Of a stretch of 64,000 nt of DNA, positions 1 to 63,800 are shown one piece after another. This stretch comes from Pelecanus crispus. Taxonomy: Eukaryota > Chordata > Aves > Pelecaniformes > Pelecanidae. Every line of letters starts with the position of its first letter. Positions within the stretch are counted from its first letter, which is position 1. The stretch lies in assembly GCF_030463565.1 (NCBI RefSeq), contig NC_134662.1, positions 5,061,001 to 5,125,000 of the forward strand, in the 5' to 3' direction. Both the position numbers and the translations under genes were made by a program. A model generated the notes under the pieces. It saw only the letters and a list, made by a program, of their open reading frames with translations, was not told the DNA's origin and did no database searches.

Positions 1-5754
<5,754 letters not shown>

Positions 5755-7640: not shown

Positions 7641-8999
7641 GCTGGCATGGAAGGAGCGCCAGGAAATGTCAGGGTGAGGTGAGCCCCGGGGAGGGGCTGG
7701 GGCTGCCGGGGAGCCTCGCCACATCCCACCGCGGGGACGTGGGAGCGGCCGGCAGGACCCGGAGGGCAGCGGTGGGAGACCCGGGAGCCGACCGGAACCG
7801 CGCACCCCCCTGGCTGCCTGCAGGTCCAGTAACGCCCCGTTGCGACAGGTCCTAAACTGGGGTGGGAGGGTGCCCTGGGGTGCCCCCAGCCCCATTTCGG
7901 TCTCGCAGGGAGGCCCCTCTGCCCCCGGCCTCGTGCCCCTGCCCACCTGCCGAGCATCCCCCATCTCCGCTGCGCTGGGGGGATGCCCCATTGCGCTGGA
8001 CCCAAAGGTGGCACCCAGGGACCCCCGGCTTTGTTGGGGGGGACGGTGCTCAGGTTGACACTGGGAAGAGACAGAGCATCTGCGGGCGCTCTGTGACCCC
8101 CACCCACCTGTCCTACGGGGTCCTGGTCCACGGTGGAGGGGTGTGGGCCATCTCCCCACCTCTGTGGCTCTGCGTCCCCTTCCCAGCCGGCCCAGGAGCT
8201 GTCCCAGTAAAGCCCAGTTACCTGCAGGCCCAGCATGGCGGGGGGCCGTGCTGCTCCGGGAGGGTGCTGGGCTCCAGCGCTCGGGGCTGCGGAGCCGGTG
8301 GGGCTTTGTCTCCCGGCTGGTGCCGGCACCTCTCCCTTTGCTGGGGGGGGATGTGCTGGCGGGGCTCCGCACCCCTATCTGGGGGGCTGTGACCTTGCAG
8401 TCAGGGTGCTCCCTTGCTGGGGAAAGGGCGGGCAGGTTGGTTTTGGGGGGGACCATCCCCTCCCGAGAGCCGTGGGGGAGCAGCCCCGTGTCATCAGATC
8501 CCAAGCCCGGGGCGGCGGGGGGGTCCATGTCCTTCGGGGTCGTGGTGCCACCGAGGGGAGATCCCGGGTGGGGATGGGGTCCCCCCGCTGCCCCCACCCA
8601 GGCGGCTCTGCCCCCGCCGGGAGGGCGCCGGGCCTGGCCCGGGCTGCGGGAGCCGCTGCCCTCCGGAGCCCCACGGCCACGCGTGACCGCGGAGCAGCCC
8701 CGGGAGGGCGGGCAGGGCCGGGGCGGCTCCGGGCTGTGGCAGTGGGCCCGGGGGGGCTCAGCCGGGGCTGAGGGGTCCCTGCGGCCACCCGACGGGCCGG
8801 GCCCCGCTCCCCGCTTACCGGAGCCGTTTCACGCCTTATAACGGGGTGGGAACGAGCCCCGGGCTGGGGGCGAGCGAGCGCGGCTCCGGCCCCGAGGGGA
8901 CGGGGACGGGGGTGGGGGGGCCCGGCCCCTCCCCGCCGCAGCAAACCGGGGCCGAGCCGGGCACCGGGGGCTGCCGCCCCCCCTCCTCCCCCAAGCCCC
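7641..8999. other. GC-rich intergenic sequence, nothing recognised
   Basis: No splice-bounded exon or known domain in any frame; GC content rises steadily toward the right. Long open frames on both strands reflect the scarcity of stop codons in GC-rich DNA. Confidence 0.5.
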
Positions 9000-9090
9000 C
9001 ACTTTGTTGTTTTGCAAAAACCCTGAAATATTCATGGCGCTGCGCCGAGCGCCTCTTAATGAATTTTTGATCAAAACGTTATCAGGGAGC
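9000..9090. promoter_or_regulatory. Candidate conserved noncoding element with SOX, homeobox and TCF-like motifs
   Basis: A 90-bp AT island in CpG-rich DNA. It carries TTTGTTGTTTTGCAAA (SOX-like and octamer-like), CTTAATGAATT (homeodomain core) and TTGATCAAAA, which contains TCF/LEF-like half-sites. There is no coding potential. Confidence 0.4.
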
Positions 9091-10182
9091 CAAAATACAC
9101 CGCGCGCCCCTCGCCCCAATCCCCGCCGTCGCGGGGGGGGCCGGGCCCGCCGGTACCGGGGGTCTGGGGGAGCCGGGCTCGGCCCGGGGGCTTTTTGCTG
9201 GGGGAGGCCCCGGGGGTCGCCCCCCGCCCAAGGGCATGGCTATTCCGGGGCCGGCGGCAGGATTTGGGGTGTCCGACGTGCAGGCCCGGCCTCCTGCTGC
9301 CCCCCACACCCCCCCCGGGCCGGGCGGGACCGGCCGGGCCCCCGTGAAGCCCCGCTTGGACGGGACGGGCGGTGGGCGGCCGGGGCAGCGCATCCCGGTG
9401 CCCCCCAGCCCCGCCGGGAGAAATATTCGTTGAGGGGGAAATGCATAAGCGGAGCTCATTAGGGGAGAGCCGGGAGCCGGCGGGCTCCCCGGCAGCGCCG
9501 GGCCGGGGGCTGCCCGTTCCCGGGGCGGCCAGGGCTGGGGGGGGGGCACCGGGGCGGCCCCGGCCCGGTCCCGGCTCCGCGGCGGGGTTTGCGCCCCCGG
9601 AGGTGCTGGAGCCCACCCCGGCCCCGCCCGGCAGCTCGGGGTCAGCGGGGGTTTGCCCCCCCCCCCCGCTCCGGGGCCGGATTTGGGGCGCACACCCCGG
9701 CGGGGGCTGCGCGAAGCCGCCTCTGCACCCCCCGGTTTGTAACGCGCTCCGAAAATCCCGGTGCGCCGGAGGAACGGGGCGGGGGGGGCTCCGTTCCCGG
9801 CCGCGTCGGAGCTTGGAGGTGTTAACACCCGGGGCAGGGGCCGATTTTTGATTTAATTTAAAAATAGCCGATTTCTGCTTCATTTCCACCGGAGAATCCC
9901 GCACCGGCCGGGGAGCGGGGTGACCCTGCCCGCCCGCCGCCTCCTGCCGCAGCCCCGGCCCCGGGAGGGGGGAAGGGACCCCCCCACCCCCCCCCGGCCC
10001 CGCTCCCTCCGCGCCCCGTGGGGTGCCCGGAGCCCTGAGGGTCCCGCGGTGCCCGGGGCCGAGCGGAGCGGGGGGGGATCCGGATCCAGCCCTGCCTCCC
10101 GCTGCCCGTGCGGGGCCGCATCCGCGGGGTCACCGGCATTATTATTTTATTATTTTATTTTTTTAAATAATAAAAATCCCAG

Positions 10183-10192
10183 TTATTTTTAG
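10183..10192. promoter_or_regulatory. MEF2 consensus site
   Basis: TTATTTTTAG, read on the other strand as CTAAAAATAA, is a perfect MEF2 site. It lies at the edge of a 60-bp A/T run, which raises the chance of a fortuitous match. Confidence 0.3.
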
Positions 10193-10333
10193 GTTGTGGT
10201 GCCAGAGCCGCCCCCGCCCCCGCGCCCCCCCCCAGCCCGGTGCATTCCCCCCAGCGCAGGGCTAACCTATCCCGCTCCCGACGTGAGGACGTCATGCCTT
10301 ACGTAGTAAAATATGGAGAAAGCAGGGGGAAAG

Positions 10334-10368
<35 letters not shown>
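10334..10368. repeat. Poly(A) tract of 35 bases
   Basis: An uninterrupted run of A in GC-rich DNA, preceded at 10271-10321 by a CRE-like GACGTCAT. No retroposon body or target-site duplication is visible around it. Confidence 0.9.
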
Positions 10369-10369
<1 letters not shown>

Positions 10370-11029
10370 CAGCGGCGCATTTTTCCCTCCTCTCTCCCAT
10401 CTCCATTTCCAAAAGGGACAAAATGGATGTTTGGGCGGAATCCCCCCCCACGCCCCCCCAGCCCCGAGGGCCCGGCGGCGGGGGGCCGGGGCTGCCCGGG
10501 CCCGCTCGGGGGGCTCCCGGCGTTAAAGCCCCGGGCAGACGTTATCTGTTTAACCCCACGTAAAGGCAACGTGATCGCGGGGGGCTCCGCTTCCCACTGC
10601 TGCTCCTGGCAGTCCTCTCTCCGGGAGCCGCAAGCCGGCCCCGCCGCGCTCCGCCTCGGCTGGATGGCTCCGGGCTCCGCGTCCTGCCCCCCCCCGGTGC
10701 CGGTACCGGTGCCGGTGCCCCCAGCCCCCGCCCCGGAGGCTGCCGGTGTCCCGGCGGCTCTCGGCTCAGGCTGTCGCTAAGTCATTAATGGATGCAGATG
10801 TGCGGAGGGAGGTAAATAATTCCCCCCCCCCCCCCCACTCCCCTTTTTCGTCGCTGTTTTCCCCTCTCCCTGCCCCGCACTGAACTCCCGGGGGCAGCGG
10901 GCGGCTGCCGGTGCTGCCCGCCGGAGGGGCAGCGCTGTGCGGGCACCGGCAGCCGCCCCGCTCCCCCTCCCGCTTCTCCCAACTTGGAGGAAGTCTGCGA
11001 GGGGGGACTCCGCGCCTCCCCCCACCCGG

Positions 11030-11032
<3 letters not shown>

Positions 11033-11061
<29 letters not shown>
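11033..11061. repeat. Poly(T) tract of 29 bases, with a G-run at 11149-11166
   Basis: A pure T-run followed 90 bases later by an 18-base pure G-run. Such runs are replication-slippage prone and also common places for assembly length errors. Confidence 0.9.
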
Positions 11062-11310
11062 GGGGGGGTGGTGTGGGGGGGGTGGTTTTTGCCTCCTCCT
11101 CCTCCGGGTTAGGGGCTGCGGGTCCCGGCAGCCCGGTGTGAGGGTCGCGGGGGGGGGGGGGGGGGGCGGAGGAGGCGTGGAAAGCTGCCCTCCCTCCGGC
11201 TCCCGCAGCGCCGGGAACAATGGCCACGGGCTCCGTGGGGACAATGCCCGGCGGAGCCGAGCTGCTTGGGTTGCAGGACACGTCCACCACCGCCTCGGCC
11301 ACCCCGGCCC

Positions 11311-11374
11311 CCCGCCCCCCCGGGGCAGGCACCCCCCGCCCCCCCGGGGCAGGCACCCCCCGCTCCCCCGGGGC
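11311..11374. repeat. Short GC tandem repeat, about 2.5 copies of 24 bp
   Basis: Repeats of a unit containing CCCCGGGGCAGGCACCCCC. No other function is evident. Confidence 0.7.
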
Positions 11375-11799
11375 TGTGGGAAAACGCGTGGCCGGGGCTG
11401 GCGGGAGGGGGGGGGGGGGGGCGAAAAACTTAGGGGAAAGTGTCCCCCCCCGCCATCCCCGGGGCCGGCTGCGTGCCCTGCCGGCTTTGGGGACCCCCCC
11501 GCCCCGCCCAACCCCGCCGTTCCCTCTTGCCCATCCCGGCTCTGGCCGCAAACTCCACCGGGAGCTCCCGGCCGGGGATCAACAGGTCGGTACCGGACAG
11601 TCCCCGGGTGCGCGCGCCGCCGCCGCCCCCGCCGCCTTCCCCAGCCCCCCCCTCCCTCATTATTCCTGTTATCCCAAGGCAGCTCCGTGCCCAAACGCCG
11701 GCATGTGCGCGGCGAACAGAGCGCGATTGTTCCGAGCCTGGGAACGCGCGGAGGGGGCGCGGGGGCCGCCGCCCGCCGCCCCCCGCCCGGCCCCCGCTC

Positions 11800-11960
11800 A
11801 GACGCGATTGTGATGGAAATCGGCCTTTCCCGCATGCTGTTGAACTTGATGTTGACTCCTTTTCTTTGGGGGGTTTCACAATCTCCTCGGCCGCTTGTTT
11901 TGTGGGAAAAATTTTCTCCCGAGCTCCGGTGTGAAATTAATTAATCAGGGCCTCTAGATG
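11800..11960. promoter_or_regulatory. Candidate conserved noncoding element
   Basis: AT-richer sequence between CpG-rich blocks, with GAAATTAATTAATCAGG (homeodomain cores), CTTTTCTTTGGGG and TTGTTTTGTGGGAAAA. No exon is recognised. It could equally be transcribed sequence of a noncoding RNA. Confidence 0.35.
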
Positions 11961-12649
11961 GCAATGGGACACAAAAGGGGACAGCCCGGGGAAACTCCGG
12001 CAAACTCCCAAGAGCCACCCCCGGGGGCCGGAGCCCCGGGCCGGCCGGACCGACTGCCCGCTGCCCGAGGTAAGGGGCTGCCGGAGCGAAGTTTCGCTGT
12101 GCGGAGCTATTTTTATTGAAGGGGAGGTTTGGGGTGGGGGGGAAAAAGGGGGAGCAGGGAGCCGGGGGCTTGGGGGTGCCGTGCCGGGGCTGTGTGTTTT
12201 GTGGGCATCCGCTCCCGTGCCCTCCCAGCCCTGCGTCTGTGCTGGGCTGTATCCCAGCCGAAAAAAAAAAACAAACCAAAAAACCAAACCCAAAACCAAA
12301 CCAAAAAAGAAAAAAACCCCAGGAAACAAACAAACAAAAAAATTCTCCACTCAAAGGGCCGGGGCTGATTGCAGCATTTCTGGAGAAAGGGGAAAAAAAA
12401 AAATTATCTTGTTTTATTATTATTTCTCCCCCCCAAAAAAAAAAAAAAAGTAACTGGGGTTGTTGCCGTGCTGAAGCGCCTGGCTCGGCACGGCGCGGAT
12501 TTCCACGCCGTTGTTTCCCGAGCGGGGAAATCGCTGCCGTGCGCGGGGGGAACCCGTTTGCCCCCAGTTTGGGGTGGGGGGGTGCCGGTTTGATTTCCAG
12601 TCCTCCCATTAGTTTCAGCGGGTGCGCGTCCTCCGGCGGGTTTAGCAGC

Positions 12650-12900
12650 GACGGGGGGGATAAATATAAAATCAGATTTTTTCTTTTGAAGCACTTTGCA
12701 GGGCAGGGTATGATTGGTTTTTTTAGAGAGATCAATCTTTGCAAAGCGTGCGGGGCGTTGGGGGAATATTTCTGCACGGGAACAGGCCAAAAATACGAGC
12801 GTCAAATCCCCTCCCGCTCTTTGTTGCTACAACACCTTTGGGTGACAGCGGCTGCAGAAAGAAAAAGCATTAAAATCTGTTGAATCTGTAGTTTTCGCCC
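12650..12900. promoter_or_regulatory. Candidate conserved noncoding element
   Basis: A 250-bp AT-richer block with GATAAATATAAAATC, CTTTGCAAAGC, CTTTGTTG (SOX-like), CATTAAAATC and ATCGATATTT. No splice-bounded exon is visible. The boundaries with the neighbouring GC-rich DNA are abrupt. Confidence 0.4.
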
Positions 12901-13049
12901 ACATCGATATTTCCAGCCGGGCAGGAATTGGGGTGGATTTGGCCGGGGGTTTGGGGACCCCTTTTCCTCGGGGTCGGTCCCACCCTCTCCGGTGCTGGTT
13001 GAATTGAGCTGCGAAGCGATGTGCAGGGGAACGAGTCGTTGTGTTTTAA

Positions 13050-13057
13050 ATGCAAAT
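13050..13057 (+). promoter_or_regulatory. Perfect octamer ATGCAAAT (POU factor site)
   Basis: The octamer sits in TTTTAAATGCAAATAATTCC, an AT island inside CpG-rich DNA. POU-class factors acting in neural progenitors bind this motif. A second perfect octamer lies 450 bases downstream of the miR-9 hairpin. Confidence 0.45.
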
Positions 13058-13654
13058 AATTCCCAGCGACAACGTTGGAATCAAACGGCGAAAAAAAAAA
13101 AAAAAATGGGGCGGGAAAAGGAAAAGAAAAGGGGGGGAAAAAAATCTCGGGGGGAGGAAAAGGGGGGGTAAAAAAAAAAAAAAAAGGTGAAAAATGCGCT
13201 TTCGAGGGGCTCCGCTGGCCGGGGAGCGGCGGCGGCTGCCCGGTGCGATGCTCCGGTGCCCGGGGAGGCTCCGGTGCCCACGGCGCGGGGGAGCTGGGCC
13301 GCCCCCCGCCCGGTAAAGAGAGCCAGCCAGCCAGCCGGCCAGCCGCCGGGCGGGGGGCTGCCCCTCCGGGGGGTCTCCCGTATTTCCCCGGCAGCAGAGG
13401 CCGGGTCCCGGCTTGGCCCCTCGGGCAGGGCCGGGGCTCCGGGTGGGTGTCCCCACTCCGCGGGTGGAAGGGACCGGCTCCGGGGCATCCCACGCCCCGG
13501 CAGCCGGTGGGACCGGTCCCGGCTGGCCGGGCAGGGGCTCCAGCGCCGCCCACCCCCCCGCCCCCGCTGCCAGCCTCGCCGGGAAAGTTGCTCCAAGTTG
13601 GAGCGATGGCGGCGGCTCCTCCTGACGCCTCTTCTCTCTCTTTCCCTCCCCAGG

Positions 13655-13707
13655 TGGGCTCGGCCGAGCGGCCCCGCGGGGACCGGCACACGGCGAGGCG
13701 GAGGTAA
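13655..13707 (+). other. Possible noncoding exon between strong splice signals
   Basis: A very strong polypyrimidine tract and CAG end at 13654, and GAG followed by GTAACC lies at 13705-13713, giving a 53-nt candidate internal exon on the strand of the microRNA. A second donor-like CAG/GTACCC lies at 17039-17047. These could belong to the miR-9 host transcript. Splice-like strings are frequent by chance in C/T-rich DNA, so this is weak. Confidence 0.2.
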
Positions 13708-14804
13708 CCGCGGCTCCCCCCACCCCCACCCCCCTCTTTTCCAAAGGCGGCCCCGGGATGCGGCCGGTTCTAGCGGAGGGGATGCGGGGCAGGTGCGGGA
13801 CCCGCAGTGAGTGGCGTTACCGGTAACGCTGCGAAGTTACCGGGCTGGCGGGCAGCGGCACGCCGCGGCATCCCTCGGTGCCATGGGAGCGGGGGGCCGG
13901 CGGCTGGCCGGGCTGCCCGGCCCCCGGTTCTCCGGTGGGAGCCGAGCCCGGCCGCGCTGCCTCCCCGCCGAGGCGGCCGGCGGCTCCTGCGGCGAGCGGC
14001 GTGCCGGCCCCGGAGCCCAACATGGCTGCTGTAGTGAAGGTATTTGGTTCACACGGGGGTGCAGGCGAGGGGAGAAGGGGCGACGAGAGGCGCCGGGGCC
14101 GGAGCCAGCGCCCGCAGCCCCCCGGGGCGAGGGGTACCGGGCGACCGCTCGCTAAGCGCCGGGGATGGACCGGGGCCGGGCATTCCCCGTGGAGCCCCCG
14201 CCGCGGACACGCGTGGGGGCGGCCGCCCCTCCCGTCCCGGCGCTACCGACCCCCCGCCGCCGGCCCCCTCGGGGGGCAGGGAGCCGCGGGGAGCCGGGAC
14301 CGGCGCCCGGCGGGGAAAAACCGGGCCCGCTGCGGCCCGCCCGGGCCCTGCGCGGCGGCTACCGGGCCCCGCCGGTGCCCGAAGCCGCCCTTCCCGCAGC
14401 CGGGCCCGGCACGGAGGGTGCTGCCGGGGCGGCGGCGAAGCTCCGCCGGTGCCGTTCGTTCCCTCGGCGGAGCTTCGGGGCCGCGGTCGTTGTTGGGGTT
14501 TTTTTTTACCCTTTGGGGCAGGGCCGCGGGCCGGGCCCCCCCGGGGGAAGGAGCGAGCCGGTAGCGGAACCCCCCGGGGCGGCGGAGCGGGGCCGGCACC
14601 GGCGGTGCCCCGGGCGGGGCGGGGGGCGGCGGGGCCGGGCAGGAGGGGCCCGGCGGGGCCCGGCTGCGGGAGGGAGCGGCAGCGGCTCGGCCCACGCGTG
14701 GTGCGGGCCCACGGTGCGGGGTGCGGGGGGTGGGGGGAGGGCGCGGGAGGCAGCTACCGGGAGTGCGCGGGGCGGGGGGGGCGGGGGGGGAAACACACGG
14801 TCCG

Positions 14805-14945
14805 TTAATTTGGCAACCGGTTGCCTCGCTGGCACCATCTTCCCGCTCGGAACGGTTTGGCCGTGCCGCGGTGCACCGGCGCGACGGGAAGCTCGGGGTT
14901 GATCCCGATAATTATTAATAGCGATAATGAGGAGAAATTAGCGGC
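14805..14945. promoter_or_regulatory. Candidate conserved noncoding element with a 14-bp perfect palindrome
   Basis: It holds GGCAACCGGTTGCC at 14812-14825, a perfect palindrome containing the grainyhead consensus AACCGGTT and two RFX-like half-sites facing outward. About 80 bases later comes GATAATTATTAATAGCGATAA and AAATTAGCGG, rich in homeodomain cores. It is an AT island in CpG-rich DNA with no coding potential. Confidence 0.4.
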
Positions 14946-15467
14946 GGTTTGGGAAGAGACGGGCGGCGGAGGCGCGACCCGGCGCGGCCCCGGGGCGCGG
15001 CCGCGGTTCAGCACCACGGAGAGCGGCGGGGCCGGGGCCCGGTTCCCGGGGCCCGGTGCCGGCGGAGCCCCCCCCCCCCGCCCGCCCCCCGGGGTGCTGC
15101 GGGCGCTGCCCGCGGTCGGGGCTCCCGCCAAGGGCTCCCCGCATCCTGGGGGTCCCCGGTGCGGGGCACAAAGCCCCGCTGCTCCCGGGGAGCCGCCGGT
15201 GCGGGCGGGTTGGCATCTCCGGCAGCGCGGCCGCGCATCGCTCCCTTCAAACGCCGCTGATCCTATCCATGCTGTGCATCTGTATGTATAGGTGTGTACG
15301 TATAGAGAAGGGCGCGGGTGGGCAGCGGGGGCCGGGACGGTTCCGTGCATCCTCCCCGAAAACCGCAGCGCTGTGAGCGGGACCGGGCCCCGCCGCCCGC
15401 CCCGACCCGACCCGCTGCTCCCGGGCCCCGCTGGAAGCGGAGCCTGGCCGGGGCTGCCCGCAGCCGG

Positions 15468-15725
15468 GGCACCGGCACGGTGCTGAACCCGGGGCACCGG
15501 CACGGTGCTGAGCCCGCCGGTGCTGAGCCCGGGGCACCGGCACGGTGCTGAGCCCGGGGCCGCGGCCGGTGCTGAGCCCGGGGCCACCGGCCCGGTGCTG
15601 TACCGGGGGCACCGGCACGGTGCTGAGCCCGGGGCCGCGGCCGGTGCTGTACCCGGGGCCGCGGCCGATGCTGTACCGGGGGCACCGGCACGGTGCTGAG
15701 CCCAGGGCCGCGGCCGGTGCCGGGT
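15468..15725. repeat. 24-25-bp GC minisatellite, about 10 copies
   Basis: Two alternating unit types, one containing GCACCGGCACGGTGCTGAGC and one containing GCCGCGGCCGGTGCTG, repeat in tandem. GCACCG and CGGTGC arms inside each unit could fold into small hairpins. Confidence 0.8.
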
Positions 15726-17039
15726 CCGGGCCGTCTCTCCGTTTCATTTTCCGCCGTTTCACCGGAGAGAGGTGCGACGAGGCGGCTCCGGGAGGGCTGC
15801 GGAGCCCGTGGGGCCGGGGCAAGGCTGGGGTCCCCGGGGCGTGGAGGAGGCTGGGCAGAGGCCCGGTGTCCTGCGTGGGGTGTGCGTGGGCGTGCACGGG
15901 TGCGTGTGCGGGGCCGTGCGCCTGCCTCGGGACCAGCGTGGCCGTGCATCGGTGTGAGCGCTGCCGGGTGTGCATCTGCCCGGGCTCCCGCCTGTGCCCA
16001 CCGGTGCCCGGGCACGCCTGCGGGCGTGGGTGCACACGGGGGGCGGGGGGGGCACGGCCGTGCCCTCCGGTGCGCTCCCGGTGCGCTCCCGGTGCGAGGC
16101 GGCCCGGGGTGCCGGGGCAAGGCCGCTGCCCCCCGCCGCTGCCGGGGGGGCCGAGCGGGTCCCCTGCCCGGGGCAGAGCCGGCCGGGACCGGCCCCGGGT
16201 GGCCGCACGGGGGGGACGTGGAGCCGGAGCTCGGCACCGCGCCCCGGGCTCTGCCCCACCGCCCCTCCGAGCCGCGGCCCCGCTTTGTCCCGGGGGGTCC
16301 CTCCCGGGCCGGGGGGGCAGAGCCGCGGCCGGGGCGGTCGAGGGAGCCGGTTACCGCCCGGGACGCGGGGGTTGGCGGCGGGGGCGGGGTCGAGCCCCGT
16401 TTTCCTCCCGAGCAGCCGCAAATTTTCCCCGTTGCAAGCGGGGCCCGTGGCGCAGCCTCGACGGGAGGGTCCGGCCGCCCCCCCCGCCGCACCGGCCGCT
16501 TCCCCTCCCCGGGCCCGTCGGGTTTAACCCCGGCTTTTGCCGGGGCGGGGGCGGCTCCGCCACGGCCCTGCCCGAGCGGGGTTACCCCCGGGGCACCGCC
16601 GCCTCCCCGACGGGGCGGGCCGGCTGCTGGAGGGGGGCGGGGGGCCGGGGCGAGCAGCCGGGCCGGCCCCCGGGGACAGCGGCGGCCGTGGCGAATGGCG
16701 CTGCCCGCCGGGGGGGTGACCCCTGCCCCGGCCCCACGCCCGGGCTGTCCCAGCCCCGCCGCTCGGGCTTTGTCCCCGCCGGCCGCCCCGTCCCTCCTCC
16801 CGCCCTCCCCCGCCCTCCCGCCATCCCTCCGCCGCCGGCTCTGCCTCAACTTTAGAGGCAGGTCCCGGAGGCGCCGGGCAGCGGGAGCGGGGCCCGCACC
16901 GGCACCGGCACCGGCACCGGGCGGGGGCACCCACCCTCCGGCCCGGCCCGAGCCGCCTCCCCACCCTGCCAGCCTGGGAAGGATGCGGCGACCCGGAGCC
17001 GACGGCGACCGCGGACAGCACCGGCCCCAGCGGGGCGAG

Positions 17040-17155
17040 CAGGTACCCCCCTTCCCCGGGTCCCCTTCCCCGGGTCCCCTTCCCAGGGTCCCCCCCGCCC
17101 GGGCTCCCTCCCCGGGTCCCCTCCCGGGGTCCCCCATCCTCTCCCCGTCCCCCGC
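17040..17155. repeat. C-rich 13-bp tandem repeat
   Basis: About seven degenerate copies of CCTTCCCCGGGTC. They follow directly after a CAG/GTACCC donor-like string, so the tract may lie in an intron of a noncoding RNA. Confidence 0.6.
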
Positions 17156-17544
17156 TGCGGGCCGGGGGCAGCCGCTCCGCCGAGTTTCCCTCCGAGCACG
17201 GCTGGAGCCCCCCGGCTCGGGCAGCTCCCCGGGAGCCTCCCCCGCCGCGGCCGGTGCCCGGGGCCGGTACCCGGGGCCGGTGTCCGGAGCCTCCCAGCTG
17301 GGGCGCGGGGTCCCTGCGGAGAAGGGTGGGCGAGGACGGGGCCACCCCGGGGGGCGGGCAGGGTCCCCCCCGCCGTGGGAGATTCACGGCCCGGACCCCC
17401 AGAATGTGCGGGGTCCCACCGGAGCCGCAGGGCCCGGCTGCGGGGAGCGGGTGCGGGAGGAAGGGGAGAAGCGGACAGCAAAGAGGGGGCGCGGGGGAAC
17501 CCCCCGGGGGGCCCTTTCGGCTGGGCCCGTCCCTTCCCCAGCCG

Positions 17545-17600
17545 CTCTCATGACTCAGCAGTTCCGTGCCAGTAATTACAGTAATTATAAAGTGGGAGCG
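17545..17600. promoter_or_regulatory. Candidate element with AP-1/MAF-like and paired homeodomain sites
   Basis: TGACTCAGCA at 17551-17560 is a full AP-1 site and MAF half-element. It is followed at once by a tandem AGTAATTAC/AGTAATTAT pair with two TAATTA-type homeodomain cores. It lies 400 bases upstream of the miR-9 hairpin. Confidence 0.35.
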
Positions 17601-18000
17601 GGCTCCGGGGTGGGTCTCGGGGCGAATTTGGGGCTGGGAAGGAGGCAGGTCCCTGGGCCGCAGGCGTCGGGGATGGATCCTGGGGGAGCATCCTGCCCTG
17701 CGATGGCTCCCGGGCCACGGGGGGCTGCGTGGGGCTGAGCCCGCTTTAGGGTGCGGGTCCCTTTTGGGGTGCAGGCGTTGGGTCAGGGCGCTCGGGTGGG
17801 CTTTGGGGAGCGCCGGCGCTGTGCGTTGCATCCCAAGGCGCCGGGGCAGATTCCTCCTCTCCCACCGAAACCGTTGGGGTTTCCTCGTTATTGGCGGCGA
17901 GGGGACGCGGATCGCGGCCGCCCCGGGGGGCTCCGGCACCGGAGCAAAACACCCCCGGGCGCGTGGCGCGGCCGAGGCCCGTTTTGTAAAGACCTGGGTT

Positions 18001-18074
18001 GGTTTTTCTCTTTGGTTATCTAGCTGTATGAGTGTATGTGATATCATAAAGCTAGAGAACCGAATGTAAAAACC
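18001..18074 (+). ncRNA. MIR9: miR-9 precursor hairpin
   Basis: The 5p arm at 18009-18031 matches the 23-nt mature miR-9-5p as I remember it, with the seed CUUUGGU intact. The 3p arm at 18046-18067 (ATAAAGCTAG, then AGAACCGAATGT) matches miR-9-3p except at two positions, 18057 and 18065. The arms pair over U18017-A18058 through U18025-A18050, with one A-G mismatch at 18018/18057, and around a 14-base terminal loop. The basal stem also pairs: GGTTTTT at 18001-18007 with AAAAACC at 18068-18074. The loop starting AGTGTATG resembles that of human mir-9-2. miR-9 is a neural microRNA that controls progenitor proliferation and differentiation. It lies between MEF2B and TMEM161A on the same strand; the paralogues MEF2C and TMEM161B flank mir-9-2 in the same way. 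The host transcript is not resolved. Confidence 0.95.
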
Positions 18075-18224
18075 CGCTCGCTATTCTCCGGGAGAAGAGC
18101 CCTGCCCTCCCGGCAGGAGAGGGGCTCGGTGGCCGCCAGCCTCCCCGAAGCACCGGCCCGGTTCCTTTGCAGGGGGAGAGCGGCTGGAAGCCACACGCGG
18201 CTGTGGAGTGGAAATTTCAGTGGG

Positions 18225-35510: not shown

Positions 35511-35783
35511 TCTGACAGCGGTCCCGGCGAGGCAGACGTGAGACCACCTCAGCTGCCCTTCACCGTCGCGTGGATGCTTTTATGAGCGTTCCCGACACGC
35601 GAGCAAAACCCCGCTCGTACGTTTCGCAAAACAATACGTTGTGGTGGGCAGGGAAGGTTCTGCAAGGCTGCGGGGTGCGGATGCATCCAACGGCGGTGCG
35701 GGAAAGGCAGGCGGAAGCAGGCAAACGCCGGGGGTTGCATGGCAGGGGTTGTCCATAGGGTGTTGATTGCATAGGGGGGTGCA

Positions 35784-37150
35784 TGTGCACGCCATGGTAT
35801 ATGTGCACGCCACACTATATGTGCACGCCATGGTATATGTGCACGCCACGGTATATGTGCACGACACACTATATGTGCACGCCATGGTATATGTGCACGA
35901 CACACTATATGTGCACGCCATGGTATATGTGCACGCCATGGTATATGTGCACGACACACTATATGTGCACGCCATGGTATATGCGCACACCACGGTATAT
36001 GTGCACGACACACTATATGTGCACAACACACTATATGTGCACGCCACGGTATATGTGTACGACACACTATATGTGTACGCCATGGTATATGTGCATGTCA
36101 TGGTATATGTGAACGCCACACTATATGTGCACGCCATGGTACATGTGCACGACATACTATATGTGCACGACACACTATATGTGCACGCCATGGTATATGC
36201 GCACACCACGGTATATGTGCACGACACACTATACGTGCACGACACACTATATGTGCACGCCACACTATATGTGCACACCACGGTATATGTGCATGCCATG
36301 GTATATGTGCATGACACACTATACGTGCACGACACACTATACGTGCATGCCACGGTATACGTGCATGCCACACTATATGTGCACACCACACTATATGTGC
36401 ATGCCACGGTATATGTGCATGCCATGGTATATGTGAACGCCACGGTATATGTGCACACCACGGTATATGTGCACGCCACACTATATGTGCACGACACACT
36501 ATATGTGCATGCCATGGTACATGTGCACGACATACTATATGTGCACGACACACTATATGTGCACACCACGGTATATGTGCATGCCATGGTATATGTGCAC
36601 GACACACTATACGTGCACGACACACTATACGTGCACGACACACTATACGTGCATGCCACGGTATACGTGCACGCCACGCTATATGTGCATGCCACGGTAT
36701 ATGTGCATGCCACGGTATATGTGCACGCCACACTATATGTGCACGCCACACTATATGTGCACGCCATGGTACATGTGCACGACATACTATATGTGCACGA
36801 CACACTATATGTGCACGCCATGGTATATGCGCACACCACGGTATATGTGCACGACACACTATACGTGCACGACACACTATACGTGCATGCCACGGTATAC
36901 GTGCATGACACGCTATATGTGCACGCCACACTATATGTGCACACCACACTATATGTGCATGCCACGGTATATGTGCACGCCATGGTATATGTGCACGACA
37001 CACTATATGTGCATGCCACACTACATGTGCACGCCACACTATATGTGCACACCACACTATATGTGCACGCCATGGTATATGTGCACGCCATGGTATATGT
37101 GCACGCCACACTATACGTGCACGCCATGGTATACGTGCACGCCACACCAC
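35784..37150. repeat. 18-bp minisatellite, about 75 copies, with higher-order structure
   Basis: Tandem copies of TATATGTGCACGCCATGG and variants (ending GCCACAC, GCCACGG, GACACAC, ACCACGG, GTCATGG). Variant copies recur together: the rare GCGCACACCACGG copy comes back at about 35971, 36187 and 36817, spacings of 12 and 35 units, which shows duplication of multi-unit blocks. Because 18 is a multiple of three, several frames stay open for more than 400 codons on both strands; these are repeat by-products, not genes. Confidence 0.95.
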
Positions 37151-48514: not shown

Positions 48515-53146
<4,632 letters not shown>

Positions 53147-56149: not shown

Positions 56150-59100
56150 TGCAAAGTCAATTATATTTTTTATTAAATATACATCCTCTCTTGGCACAAA
56201 TCTTAAAATATATAAACATTATATAACAAAGTGTCTTCACTGCAATAAAATAGAACTCCAGATCCAAGAAAAGCAGTCAAAACCGACACACACGCATACA
56301 CGCACACATTGATGGTGAGGACACGTCTTGACAAAAGGCATTTAACAGTGTTTGTGCTAATATATGCATAGACCACACAGGCAGCGAACAGTGCCGGGAA
56401 ACCCTGCGTCACATGGCATTCAAGGGGGAGACGGGGGTAGCGGGAGGAATCAGCCCCTACAATAAAAAAAAAAAATAAAAAAAAATAAAGGCTGCTTTGT
56501 AGGAAGGCCACCTCCTCCTCTGGCCCTGTCCAGGTAGGGAGGGTCCGCAGCATCTGCCCTGGCTCCCTGCGGAGCCCAAGGACCCGTCAGGCACTGGGGA
56601 AATGGCACGGGAATTACCCCGCCGCATTTCCCCCTCCTCCTGCCTGCCCAGGACTGGCACCAGGCTCGCTCGGGGTTGCCACAGTGCTTCTGCTCAAAGT
56701 TCCCTTTCACGCCTCACCTGCTTTTGTGTCAGACACCAGAGGGTGAAGGTGATAGTGCTCGAGTCCTTCTGGGCGGAAGGCAGCAAGAAGCTAACAGCAG
56801 TACCGCTACTTTTCCATAGAAGCTATGAAACCGCTTTTGGAGAGCTTCCACGGAGTACCAATGCTACACCACGCTACCCAGCCCAGGGCTTTCAGTGACT
56901 TTGTGCCTCAGGAGGCCATGCCTGCCTCCCGATCCTTCCACCACGGTCCTGCCAACCACCAGCCGGCTCTTCAGCGGCTCCGTCTTCCCGGGGAACTGGC
57001 AGAGGTCTGCCAGGGGCATGCAGGGCAAAGGGGTTTGCAAGAAGCCAGCTCAGATCCCACCTCTCGCATATTCAAGTTCCCTCCGAGGCTCCCAGAAGGT
57101 CCAGCTCTCCCCGAGCTACCTACCCAGCGAGCAGCCACTGTCACAGAGCACAGCGGGCATCGCGTGCAGGTACCGAAAGAGGAAACGGTAAGAAGCAGCA
57201 GCATTTCACAGCTTGTGAAGGAAAGGTGCTAGAAGGAAAGGCGCTAGGCTGGACAAGTAGCTCAAGAACCTTTCAAGAACACCTTCTGCCCCATCACCTT
57301 TAAGTGCCTTTAACTTCTTGCCCCCACACAAGCATCCCTGCCTGCAAGTGGGAAGCCTTAGTGGGGCTGTTTGGGTGTCGCTACCAAAGCTGCAATTTTG
57401 TCATTTTGGATGCGTTTCATTGGACCTGATTTTCTCGAAGTGCTAGTGCGGGACTAAGGGTGCAGAAGCAGGGAGGGAGGGAGAGTAGGCAAGAAAAAAA
57501 AGCACAAATTCATGGTTGGCGTTAACGCATTAAGGAACAATGAGAAACGTGACTTGAAAGTAAAAGCAAGGAATTTGAGAAGAATAAAATGAAAAAAATG
57601 GGGAATTTGGGGTAGTAAAGAGGTTCTAAAGAAAAGAAGGACTAGAGAATATTCCCGTTAGACTTGTCTCCCTTCTCAGAGCTAAAGGCAATGGTCCTTC
57701 TTGGCCAGCACACAGGCACCCTCCCTTTCCAAATCAGCATGGCCAAAACTCCCTGGGCACTCATTCCAGGCAGCAGAGAGATCTGGAATTCATGCAAGTA
57801 TTAAGAGGAGGGAAGAGAACACTCTGTTTCTCCCTTTCTACATTCAAATCAGAAGGGGAAAAAAAAAAAAAAAGCTATTTAAAACAACCCAAAGCAGTAA
57901 CACACAGTTACTCTGAACACTTTTGCCCAAGAAACAAAAGCACCAAAATCATTACAGACTGAATTCAAAGATCTGTCTCTGAACAAACACTCAGCCTGCA
58001 AAACTTGGAAAAACATGTTTGGCTAAAATTCCACTCAGTTAAAATCAGGTGCAGCTGCTAATTAGGGAACAACTTATCTGAGCTCAATGCTTCCAAGTCT
58101 GGCTGTGCTTCAGGTCGCGTTTCTCAGCTCGGAGTCCCCGGGCTCCAGACAAGCTGCCTGCACCGCGTTTCAGCTGCAGGGTGGGTGACACCAGGGTCAG
58201 CCAGCCAGAAGCTGCCTCCTCCACTGCCTCCCGTTCATTTAACACACTAGCTGCGCTCCCGACGTGGCAGAAGGTATCTTGTGCGGACCCGCCCTCCCGC
58301 TCAGTCCCAAACAAGAGGCTAGTCATCCAGTGTAAATCCTTTCTCAGTCAGGACCCAGGAGGAATTAAGCCACTTCTGCTGCCATAAGGGTTCAGTGACG
58401 CTCAACATCTCTTAAGACAAGGCCTGCTGCACTTGCCTCCGAGATGACCTACCGTACCGTGGAGCAAAGGAGCCTCCTCGAACTGGGATGCCACAGTTCA
58501 GCTTCCTCCCGTCTTCATACAGTACCCGTCGGCTGCGCAGGAAGGACTGGGCTTTGAACCGGCAGCCTCCAAGCTGGGAGAGAACTTGGCACGGATTGTA
58601 CACAGACACACGTACACGCGCAGTCAACTGCTGACACACCCCGTTGCTGGTCTGTACCTCGCTTCTGCGGTAGGATGCAACTGCCTTAGTATTTCCTCAC
58701 TGGGCCAGACAAGATAAAGACAAGAGCAGGAGTAATTGGCTTCTCCATTGGAGAAAAGAAATCGGAGCTCTTGCAAAGGACTAAATAAAATTTTACCCAA
58801 ACGAAGAGAACCACTGATCATCTTCCATTAGCAATGGGAGCAAAAAATATACAGAATTCATGGCTATCATCTCTAAAGACTCTTAAAACAACACCACCTC
58901 ACATTTCTTTAATTACAAGGTAAATCAGTGACTGCAGTCAAGTTTCACAATGGAAATGGGCTTGGAGGCAGAAATTACTGAGGATAATACCCCGCCCAAC
59001 CATTAAAGTATGATCGATCCCACATGTTCTGGGAACAACATGCATGCTAATACTTCAGTATGCTGGCTCTCTGCCGTGTCCACAAAATGGAAGTGTAGGT

Positions 59101-60831: not shown

Positions 60832-63800
60832 CTACCTTTCAACATTAGTGCTGTGCTGTAATTTACGGAGAAGGATCTGCGTCAGGTCAAAGGTTGTGAA
60901 GCTTATTCCCACTGCAATCGGACCTTTGACCCAGTTCATGCTGAGTCCTTTGTACAAGCCACGGATTAGTCCCTCTTCTCTTATAATCTCCTTCATGGTG
61001 AGAAGGATGGAACTGTACGTGTGTCCCATAACCCCCGCTGTCTGCATTCGTCGGCGAACCACATCCAGGGGGTAAGAAGCTGACTGGCCAATCAAACCTG
61101 CACAGGCACCAAACAAAAGCCGCTCTGGAGGAGATGGCTGCAATTTCCCACTGTGATCTGGGAAAGAGAAAGTAACGGTGTAGAAAGCTTCTCGTAATAA
61201 ACACATGATTAAGGTCAAGTGGGCTGAGAGCCAAAGAGAGTGCCAGAGCTGCCGAGATTTTGTTCCCAACTTGGTTATTAGCTGACTTGGTATATAACCA
61301 AGTCCTTCTGCACCCAGGACTTGCACCTCCTTGTTCCTTGCAAGACAGAGATACTGCTTTTCTGCAGCTTGCCTTCCTGATAGTCTGGAATTGGAGAGAC
61401 GAGGGCACAAGGCATCCTCCACAAGCACAGAGCTGTGCGACTGGCTTCAAGGCCAGGAAAAGGACTTGTACCACTGAATTCAAACGCCTCGAACTGGCCA
61501 AAAGCCGACACCATGTCATTTGAAAGCAAACCAAGCTGCCTTTACCTGCATGTAGTTTCTTCAACGTCTCGTAGGTGAAGAAGCTAAGCCCAGCATATGG
61601 AATCACTCCAAGGATGGTTGGTGTAAATCCCCTATACAATGTCTTCAATCCTTCCTCTCGGGATATCCGGATGAAGACATGAACAATATTGCTGTACCTA
61701 GCATGCGGACACAGGAAAACCAAATCTGCGCTGGTTAGTGACTGCACACACCAGTAATATTTCCAACAGTACTTTCTGAAGGATCAGCAATTAATTAATT
61801 CAGCTCTGAGCTCATCAAACAGCTCAGAAGGGATTTCAGAAGCCTGTCTGCAAATGGAGAAGCCAGTCACCAGCTCTCCTACAGTCCTATCACAACATGC
61901 TGTCCTGTGTGTTAGATCTCTTCCGGAGGCATGGTGCCAGCTGGCCTCCTAAAGAACCAACACACAGGTTTTACTAGCGAGGTCTTTCAGTATCGATCTC
62001 CTTCCAGCCCCTGGACTAACCAGGACTCTGGTCATTTAATCAGTGCTCAGACCCCAGCACTAAGAGGTTTATTACACCAGAGGCTCCGAGCAAGAAGTGA
62101 CCCAGAAAATGGGAATAAAGTCATCTGACCTTAAAAGAAAGTTCTGCATTTGTTCGTGGTGCTTGTACTTGCTTTCGTTAGGCACTTACATCTCCTTCGG
62201 CGTGACAGCCATTCGAGCACGGACCATATCCAAGGGGTAGGTTAACATGGCAGCCGTTGTGCCTGCCAGAGAGCCAGCAATGAATCGAGGAAAGGGTGTC
62301 AGCGCTCTAAAGTAAGGTGAGAGAAGAGACCAAACAGATCACCTGGAGATGGAAATACTACGTCGCTTTTGAGGATGGCTCTATTCTATCAGCTACTGAA
62401 TCCCTTCCCTGCCTGTGTACTGAAGAGCGTCGGGTGGGTAGGGGTTGAAGCAGCTGTGGTTTGCCACAGCCATTCAAGACATAGGCTTAGAGAAATATCT
62501 GTTGAGGACAGCAAGCCTGACTTGGGGTGTCTCAGACACTACGTGCCCAAGAGCAAGAGGCTCAGGCCATGCGCATGGCTCAGATAACAGCACAAGGCTG
62601 GATCTTGTTGCTTCTCCTGCAAAGAAAAGCTCTTTGTTTTGCCTGCCCACTCTCAGCACAGGGAAGTGCTAACTCAATGTCTAGGCCACTTCTTGCTCAT
62701 GCCTCTAGAAGACAGGGTCTTCCTCTCACAAAGCTCTCCCCTGTGCAAGACTAGAAGCCCAGCCCCTTGCTTAGCCCCCTCACACACCCTGTTCCGCGAA
62801 GCCATCCTGAGAGGGGCCGGCACAACTCTGTACCAACAGAGCTTTCAACTCAGCAGGCCTGCACAAAGCAGAGAAATGTGCTTCCCTCCCTACAATCTAC
62901 GGTCCCACAGACTGCTCCATCCTCCTCTGCAAGGATCAAAGCCACGCGGCATCTTACTTTCCCTGGAAGCCGTAGTAACTCCCCAGGAGCTGCTTGTACT
63001 CTTCGTGTGCGCAGAACTGAATGGCAGCGTAAGGGATCACACGGACCATGGTGGCTGAGTTCCCCCGCCAAAGACTCCAGAAGCCTTCATTGAGGTAGGT
63101 GCGATAAATCAGCCTGTAGGCTTCCTGCAGGCAACAGATCAAAGGTCAGACAGGGAGATCATTATAAGAGGGGGAAAAGGTGACCCTATAGCTTAACCTC
63201 TCCAAATCCTCCTTCTCACCCCAACCACAGTAAACTGATATCAGCTGTTTACGCTCGCAACCCTGACTCCAGAATAAGACAACTAAAACGTCTTGTCTGG
63301 GGAGACTGAATCAGATACATTAGAGCAAAAAAAGAACCGGAGTCAGGAAGGCAGAGTTTTACACTCAAGACATCTTCACTTTCCCTCCAAGGGCAAGGCA
63401 CAGAGCTGGATTGCTGTTTTCACAAACCATTTCTCAACCCAAATTAACCTTCTTGGTATAAGACAGAAAAATTTGGATGACACGTTATTAGCATGGCACA
63501 CATGGAACAGCTGTAATGCACATGCAACCAAACATTCAGCAAGCCATGACAGCAATCAGCTCCCAAATTCAAATTTCTTATATATGCTGAAACAACTCCA
63601 ACGGTGGCTGGGGGAAAGAAGGCACCCACTAGAGGAGAAGGTCTAAGAAAACAAAGCCCTGAGCAATGCCACAACATTTACTGTCATGTCACGGGTAGAA
63701 CCTGGACTATGAATGGGGCCCCTCTGTGCTAGGCACTGGACAAAAACATGAACATGAAAGAGCACTGTCCTAAAGAGTATTATAAACAATACTGTTTCCA

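Follow-up and report, generated by a model that had tools for sequence, protein, structure and literature searches.

We wondered which member of the miR-9 family lies beside MEF2B in the pelican Pelecanus crispus. The locus belongs to a window of 64,000 nucleotides, the whole stretch of DNA analysed here (contig NC_134662.1, positions 5,061,001 to 5,125,000, forward strand). A sequence-only reading of this window had placed a miR-9 gene at 18001..18074, in the interval between MEF2B and TMEM161A. Humans have three mir-9 loci, none of them known to adjoin MEF2B, and the hairpin had been proposed to be an extra miR-9 copy that is missing in the human lineage. We asked whether the hairpin represents a genuine miRNA gene and, if so, which of the vertebrate copies it corresponds to. 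Published work seen in part is cited as an excerpt.

The hairpin and its two arms

Of all Rfam families, only mir-9 (RF00237) gave a match of at least the gathering score when both strands of the 64-kb window were searched. The match reached 73.2 bits (E = 2e-12) and ran over model positions 1-78 of 78. We judged membership of RF00237 by a score above the curated gathering cut-off of 58.6 bits and by a mature miR-9-5p in the 5' arm, and the hairpin has both. The locus is composed as follows.

18000..18075, + strand: precursor hairpin of the mir-9 family (RF00237), preferred reading mir-9-4 / mir-9b; full-length Rfam match, fold z -4.44
18009..18031, + strand: miR-9-5p; exact, 23 of 23 letters
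18032..18046, + strand: terminal loop region, from the sequence, with UGU at 18033-18035
18047..18068, + strand: b-type 3p arm of miR-9, with the same letters as the clu-miR-9b-3p primer
17995..17996, + strand: basal UG, 14 bases 5' of the expected Drosha cut
18086..18089, + strand: CNNC motif, starting 18 bases past the 3p end

The miR-9 gene and the complete miR-9-5p of the sequence-only reading were thus both recovered. Of the 23 query letters for miR-9-5p, 22 find their complement in the miR-9 LNA of PMC5824543 (excerpt). With the four bases taken as equally common, an exact match to 23 letters is expected about 2e-9 times by chance.

The 3p arm had been described as nearly complete. In comparison with human MIR9-2, and with human miR-9-3p as the reference, the bird arm differs at two of 22 positions. 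Both changes lie outside the seed, so that a large overlap in targets with the usual miR-9-3p is to be expected. A search of open-licence papers with a shortened DNA form of the arm matched a lumpfish study (PMC8773022, excerpt), in which the primer for clu-miR-9b-3p was taken from the mature sequence. The pelican arm is identical to this primer over 22 of 22 letters in the one species compared, and the lumpfish and bird sequences, set side by side over the 3p arm only, do not differ. Judged by these letters, the arm is a complete variant common to a teleost instead of a damaged arm.

We folded the 106 bases at 17985-18090 and obtained a single hairpin in which a loop tops a central and a basal stem (-33.2 kcal/mol), in agreement with the paired basal stem described before. 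The mean of shuffled sequences was -19.05 (z -4.44), and none of 200 shuffles was as stable. The minus strand folds as well, more weakly than the plus strand (-28.1), and we do not claim an antisense miR-9 from it. UG, UGU and CNNC are motifs of Drosha/DGCR8 substrates, UGU being relevant to DGCR8. In addition to the CNNC listed above, a second one begins 6 bases downstream of the 3p end. A stable hairpin, paired arms, a basal stem and processing motifs, by which we recognise a bona fide miRNA gene, are all present. A tRNA search found none.

Gene order between MEF2B and TMEM161A

Protein searches identified both neighbours and so confirmed the proposed MEF2B-TMEM161A interval.

2105..5754, + strand: upstream neighbour MEF2B, coding region in several exons; MADS exons, PF00319 and protein matches
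49956..53146, + strand: downstream neighbour TMEM161A, second and later coding exons, end approximate; PF10268 and bird TMEM161A matches
60835..61783, - strand: mitochondrial carrier exons, beyond TMEM161A; PF00153

In the protein search, the joined MEF2B reading frame matched best to MEF2B of the ibis Theristicus caerulescens (95% identity over 100% of the query), and the five best matches were all from water birds. MEF2B is also the best solved relative, with MEF2C and MEF2A close behind on the MADS part alone, and the C-terminal end of MEF2B was located too. The joined TMEM161A exon peptides scored 440 bits against PF10268, and a C-terminal PF10268 match was found as well. Their best protein matches were bird TMEM161A sequences, led by Buteo japonicus (86% over 99%). 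Pfam matches were obtained for three of ten stretches in one set and for two of four in another. By synteny, the mitochondrial carrier exons are probably those of SLC25A42. CR1 repeat tails were sought as a marker of bird DNA and not found, and it is the protein matches that identify the window as avian.

The hairpin lies about 12 kb past the MEF2B stop and 32 kb ahead of the first TMEM161A exon found, and MEF2B, the hairpin and TMEM161A are all on the plus strand. The hairpin, both of its arms, the flanking genes and their order and direction are read directly from the DNA. The first exon of TMEM161A was not located, which allows for a position of the hairpin inside a TMEM161A intron, an arrangement that we consider unlikely.

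Two tandem arrays occupy part of the interval. About 76 copies of the 18-base unit ATGTGCACGCCACGCTAT (83% matches) fill 35783-37145. Both strands of this array contain long open frames, and it is most likely a minisatellite. A G+C-rich minisatellite at 48529-49836, with GGGTGCATGCCC-like units and nested periods including 15, 71, 117 and 157 bases, lies directly before the first TMEM161A exon that was located.

Identity of the miR-9 copy

Copies of miR-9 in vertebrates parallel the genome duplications (PMC3834235, excerpt), and a figure legend of the same 2013 review states that eutherian mammals lost miR-9-4/miR-9b. The pelican hairpin resembles this class, as described in the review and in lumpfish (PMC8773022, excerpt), by its exact 5p and by the b-type 3p arm from which we recognise the class, identical over the 22 primer letters of the single species compared. 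The reported eutherian loss supports the earlier suggestion of an additional copy that the human lineage lacks. Going by the literature, the hairpin is supported as a genuine miR-9 locus that is absent from placental mammals.

The neighbours point in the same direction. Human MIR9-2 is located inside LINC00461, between MEF2C and TMEM161B (PMC5663582, excerpt). Like MIR9-2, the bird hairpin belongs to the miR-9 family and lies between genes of the MEF2 and TMEM161 families, but its flanks are MEF2B and TMEM161A instead of MEF2C and TMEM161B. From the paralogous neighbourhoods it can be argued, by synteny, that the early vertebrate duplications gave rise to this copy and that placental mammals lost it afterwards. 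Combined, the neighbours and the letters of the 3p arm favour bird miR-9-4/miR-9b over other readings of the locus, an orthology drawn from these two features and from published statements. We consider it highly probable that the hairpin is a miR-9-family miRNA gene and that it is most likely orthologous to miR-9-4 (miR-9b), the fourth of the copies that the two genome duplications early in vertebrate history left behind.

This fourth vertebrate miR-9 class is already known in print. As a class with the b-type 3p exists in fish and the eutherian loss has been in print since 2013, birds have probably retained an old copy at the pelican locus and not gained a new one. What the locus adds is a bird chromosomal setting for the described class: MEF2B - miR-9 - TMEM161A, paralogous to MEF2C - MIR9-2 - TMEM161B.

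The bird gene may already be present in miRBase under another name. According to PMC5824543 (excerpt), which refers to miRBase 21, there are three miR-9 genes in human, four in Xenopus tropicalis and two in birds, and chick gga-mir-9-1 is close to zebrafish mir-9-4. By this closeness gga-mir-9-1 is possibly the same gene as the pelican hairpin. In the tree of that excerpt, a single clade contains both mir-9-3 and mir-9-4 from mammals and teleosts, and the tree departs from an earlier one. Given this clade and the conflict between the trees, the species numbering of miR-9 genes is weak evidence for orthology. Among open-licence papers, literature searches for the 3p arm written as RNA (21 letters, exact) and for the name Mir-9-P4 gave no match. 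A broad search of such papers on miR-9-4, eutherians, birds and reptiles had no mir-9-4, mir-9b or mef2b among the matches listed. The excerpts of PMC8789304 and PMC8728216 do not name a MEF2B-linked miR-9 copy.

We weighed this identity against three other explanations. The first thing to consider is whether a chance hairpin or a repeat-derived inverted repeat might simply resemble miR-9. When we folded 106-base stretches of the window within 5% of the G+C content of the hairpin (step 20, both strands, 584 folds), nine were as stable as the miR-9 hairpin. Two of these overlap the miR-9 hairpin itself, six belong to the array of 18-base units at about 36 kb, and one is located at 57901-58006 (-). 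As this degree of stability is common to nine control folds, the identification of the hairpin rests on the sequence match, and fold stability was dropped as sole evidence. The exact 23-letter 5p (about 2e-9 expected) combined with the Rfam E-value of 2e-12 excludes a fortuitous resemblance, to which we assign a negligible probability.

A true miR-9 hairpin could still be a lineage-specific addition, a recent duplicate or retro-inserted hairpin that came to lie beside MEF2B in birds. The two avian miR-9 genes counted from miRBase 21 (PMC5824543, excerpt) leave room for one that is not listed. However, the 3p arm has the b-type letters of a teleost, which would not be expected if a copy with an ordinary 3p had been duplicated recently, the order MEF2-miR-9-TMEM161 repeats that found at human MIR9-2 (PMC5663582, excerpt), and the basal stem and the processing motifs are present. 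We therefore regard such an addition as very unlikely. Equally improbable in our view is a copy in decay, or a pseudogene, which still folds but has ceased to be transcribed or processed. The reported eutherian loss does show that the class was dispensable in one lineage (PMC3834235, excerpt), but the pelican hairpin has retained all 23 letters of the 5p, all 22 letters that the 3p shares with the fish variant, and an intact stem and motifs. Since long neutral decay leaves changes, the intact arms argue against decay. An old miR-9-4/miR-9b copy that was kept in birds is the reading that we prefer.

Possible expression and action of the bird copy

For this bird miR-9-4/miR-9b locus, we infer transcription, processing and targets as well as an action of the MEF2B-linked copy in the bird brain. 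A non-coding transcript of the plus strand, running from MEF2B towards TMEM161A as the counterpart of LINC00461 at MIR9-2, would carry the hairpin. Drosha/DGCR8 and then Dicer would release miR-9-5p, the same as that of the other copies, together with miR-9b-3p. Loaded into Argonaute, these products may repress messages of neural progenitors, FGF8 in chick being one example. The copy would thereby add to the dosage of miR-9-5p and contribute a 3p strand that is distinct outside the seed. As the 5p has the usual miR-9-5p letters, the contribution of this copy to the bird brain can be read only from its 3p strand or by deleting the hairpin.

In neural progenitors, the targets through which miR-9 is described to work are Hes/her, members of the FGF pathway and REST/CoREST (PMC3834235, excerpt). 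At the chick mid-hindbrain boundary, FGF8 is a direct target that is repressed by miR-9, and extra miR-9 caused no obvious fall of HES1 there (PMC5824543, excerpt). In lumpfish, clu-miR-9b-3p was significantly higher in brain by RT-qPCR; the difference by sequencing was not significant (PMC8773022, excerpt). In sea bass, a miRNA named miR-9-4-3p was among the five most raised in ovary compared to testis (PMC12060346, excerpt), and a purely neural role is for this reason not a given.

We speculate that bird miR-9b resides in a long non-coding ohnologue of LINC00461, with an expression domain of its own and a distinct 3p output, a proposal that we consider rather unlikely. If it held true, placental mammals would have lost a separate regulator and not a spare copy.

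Upstream of the hairpin, the region 8500-18000 has a G+C content of 0.55-0.83 and a CpG observed/expected ratio of 0.68-0.98 in 1-kb steps, and it ends at the hairpin. This CpG-rich region between MEF2B and miR-9 may serve as promoter for the transcript that hosts the miRNA. Tandem repeats with units of 24, 25, 40, 49 and 75 bases are found at 15464-15720, in the CpG-rich stretch upstream of miR-9.
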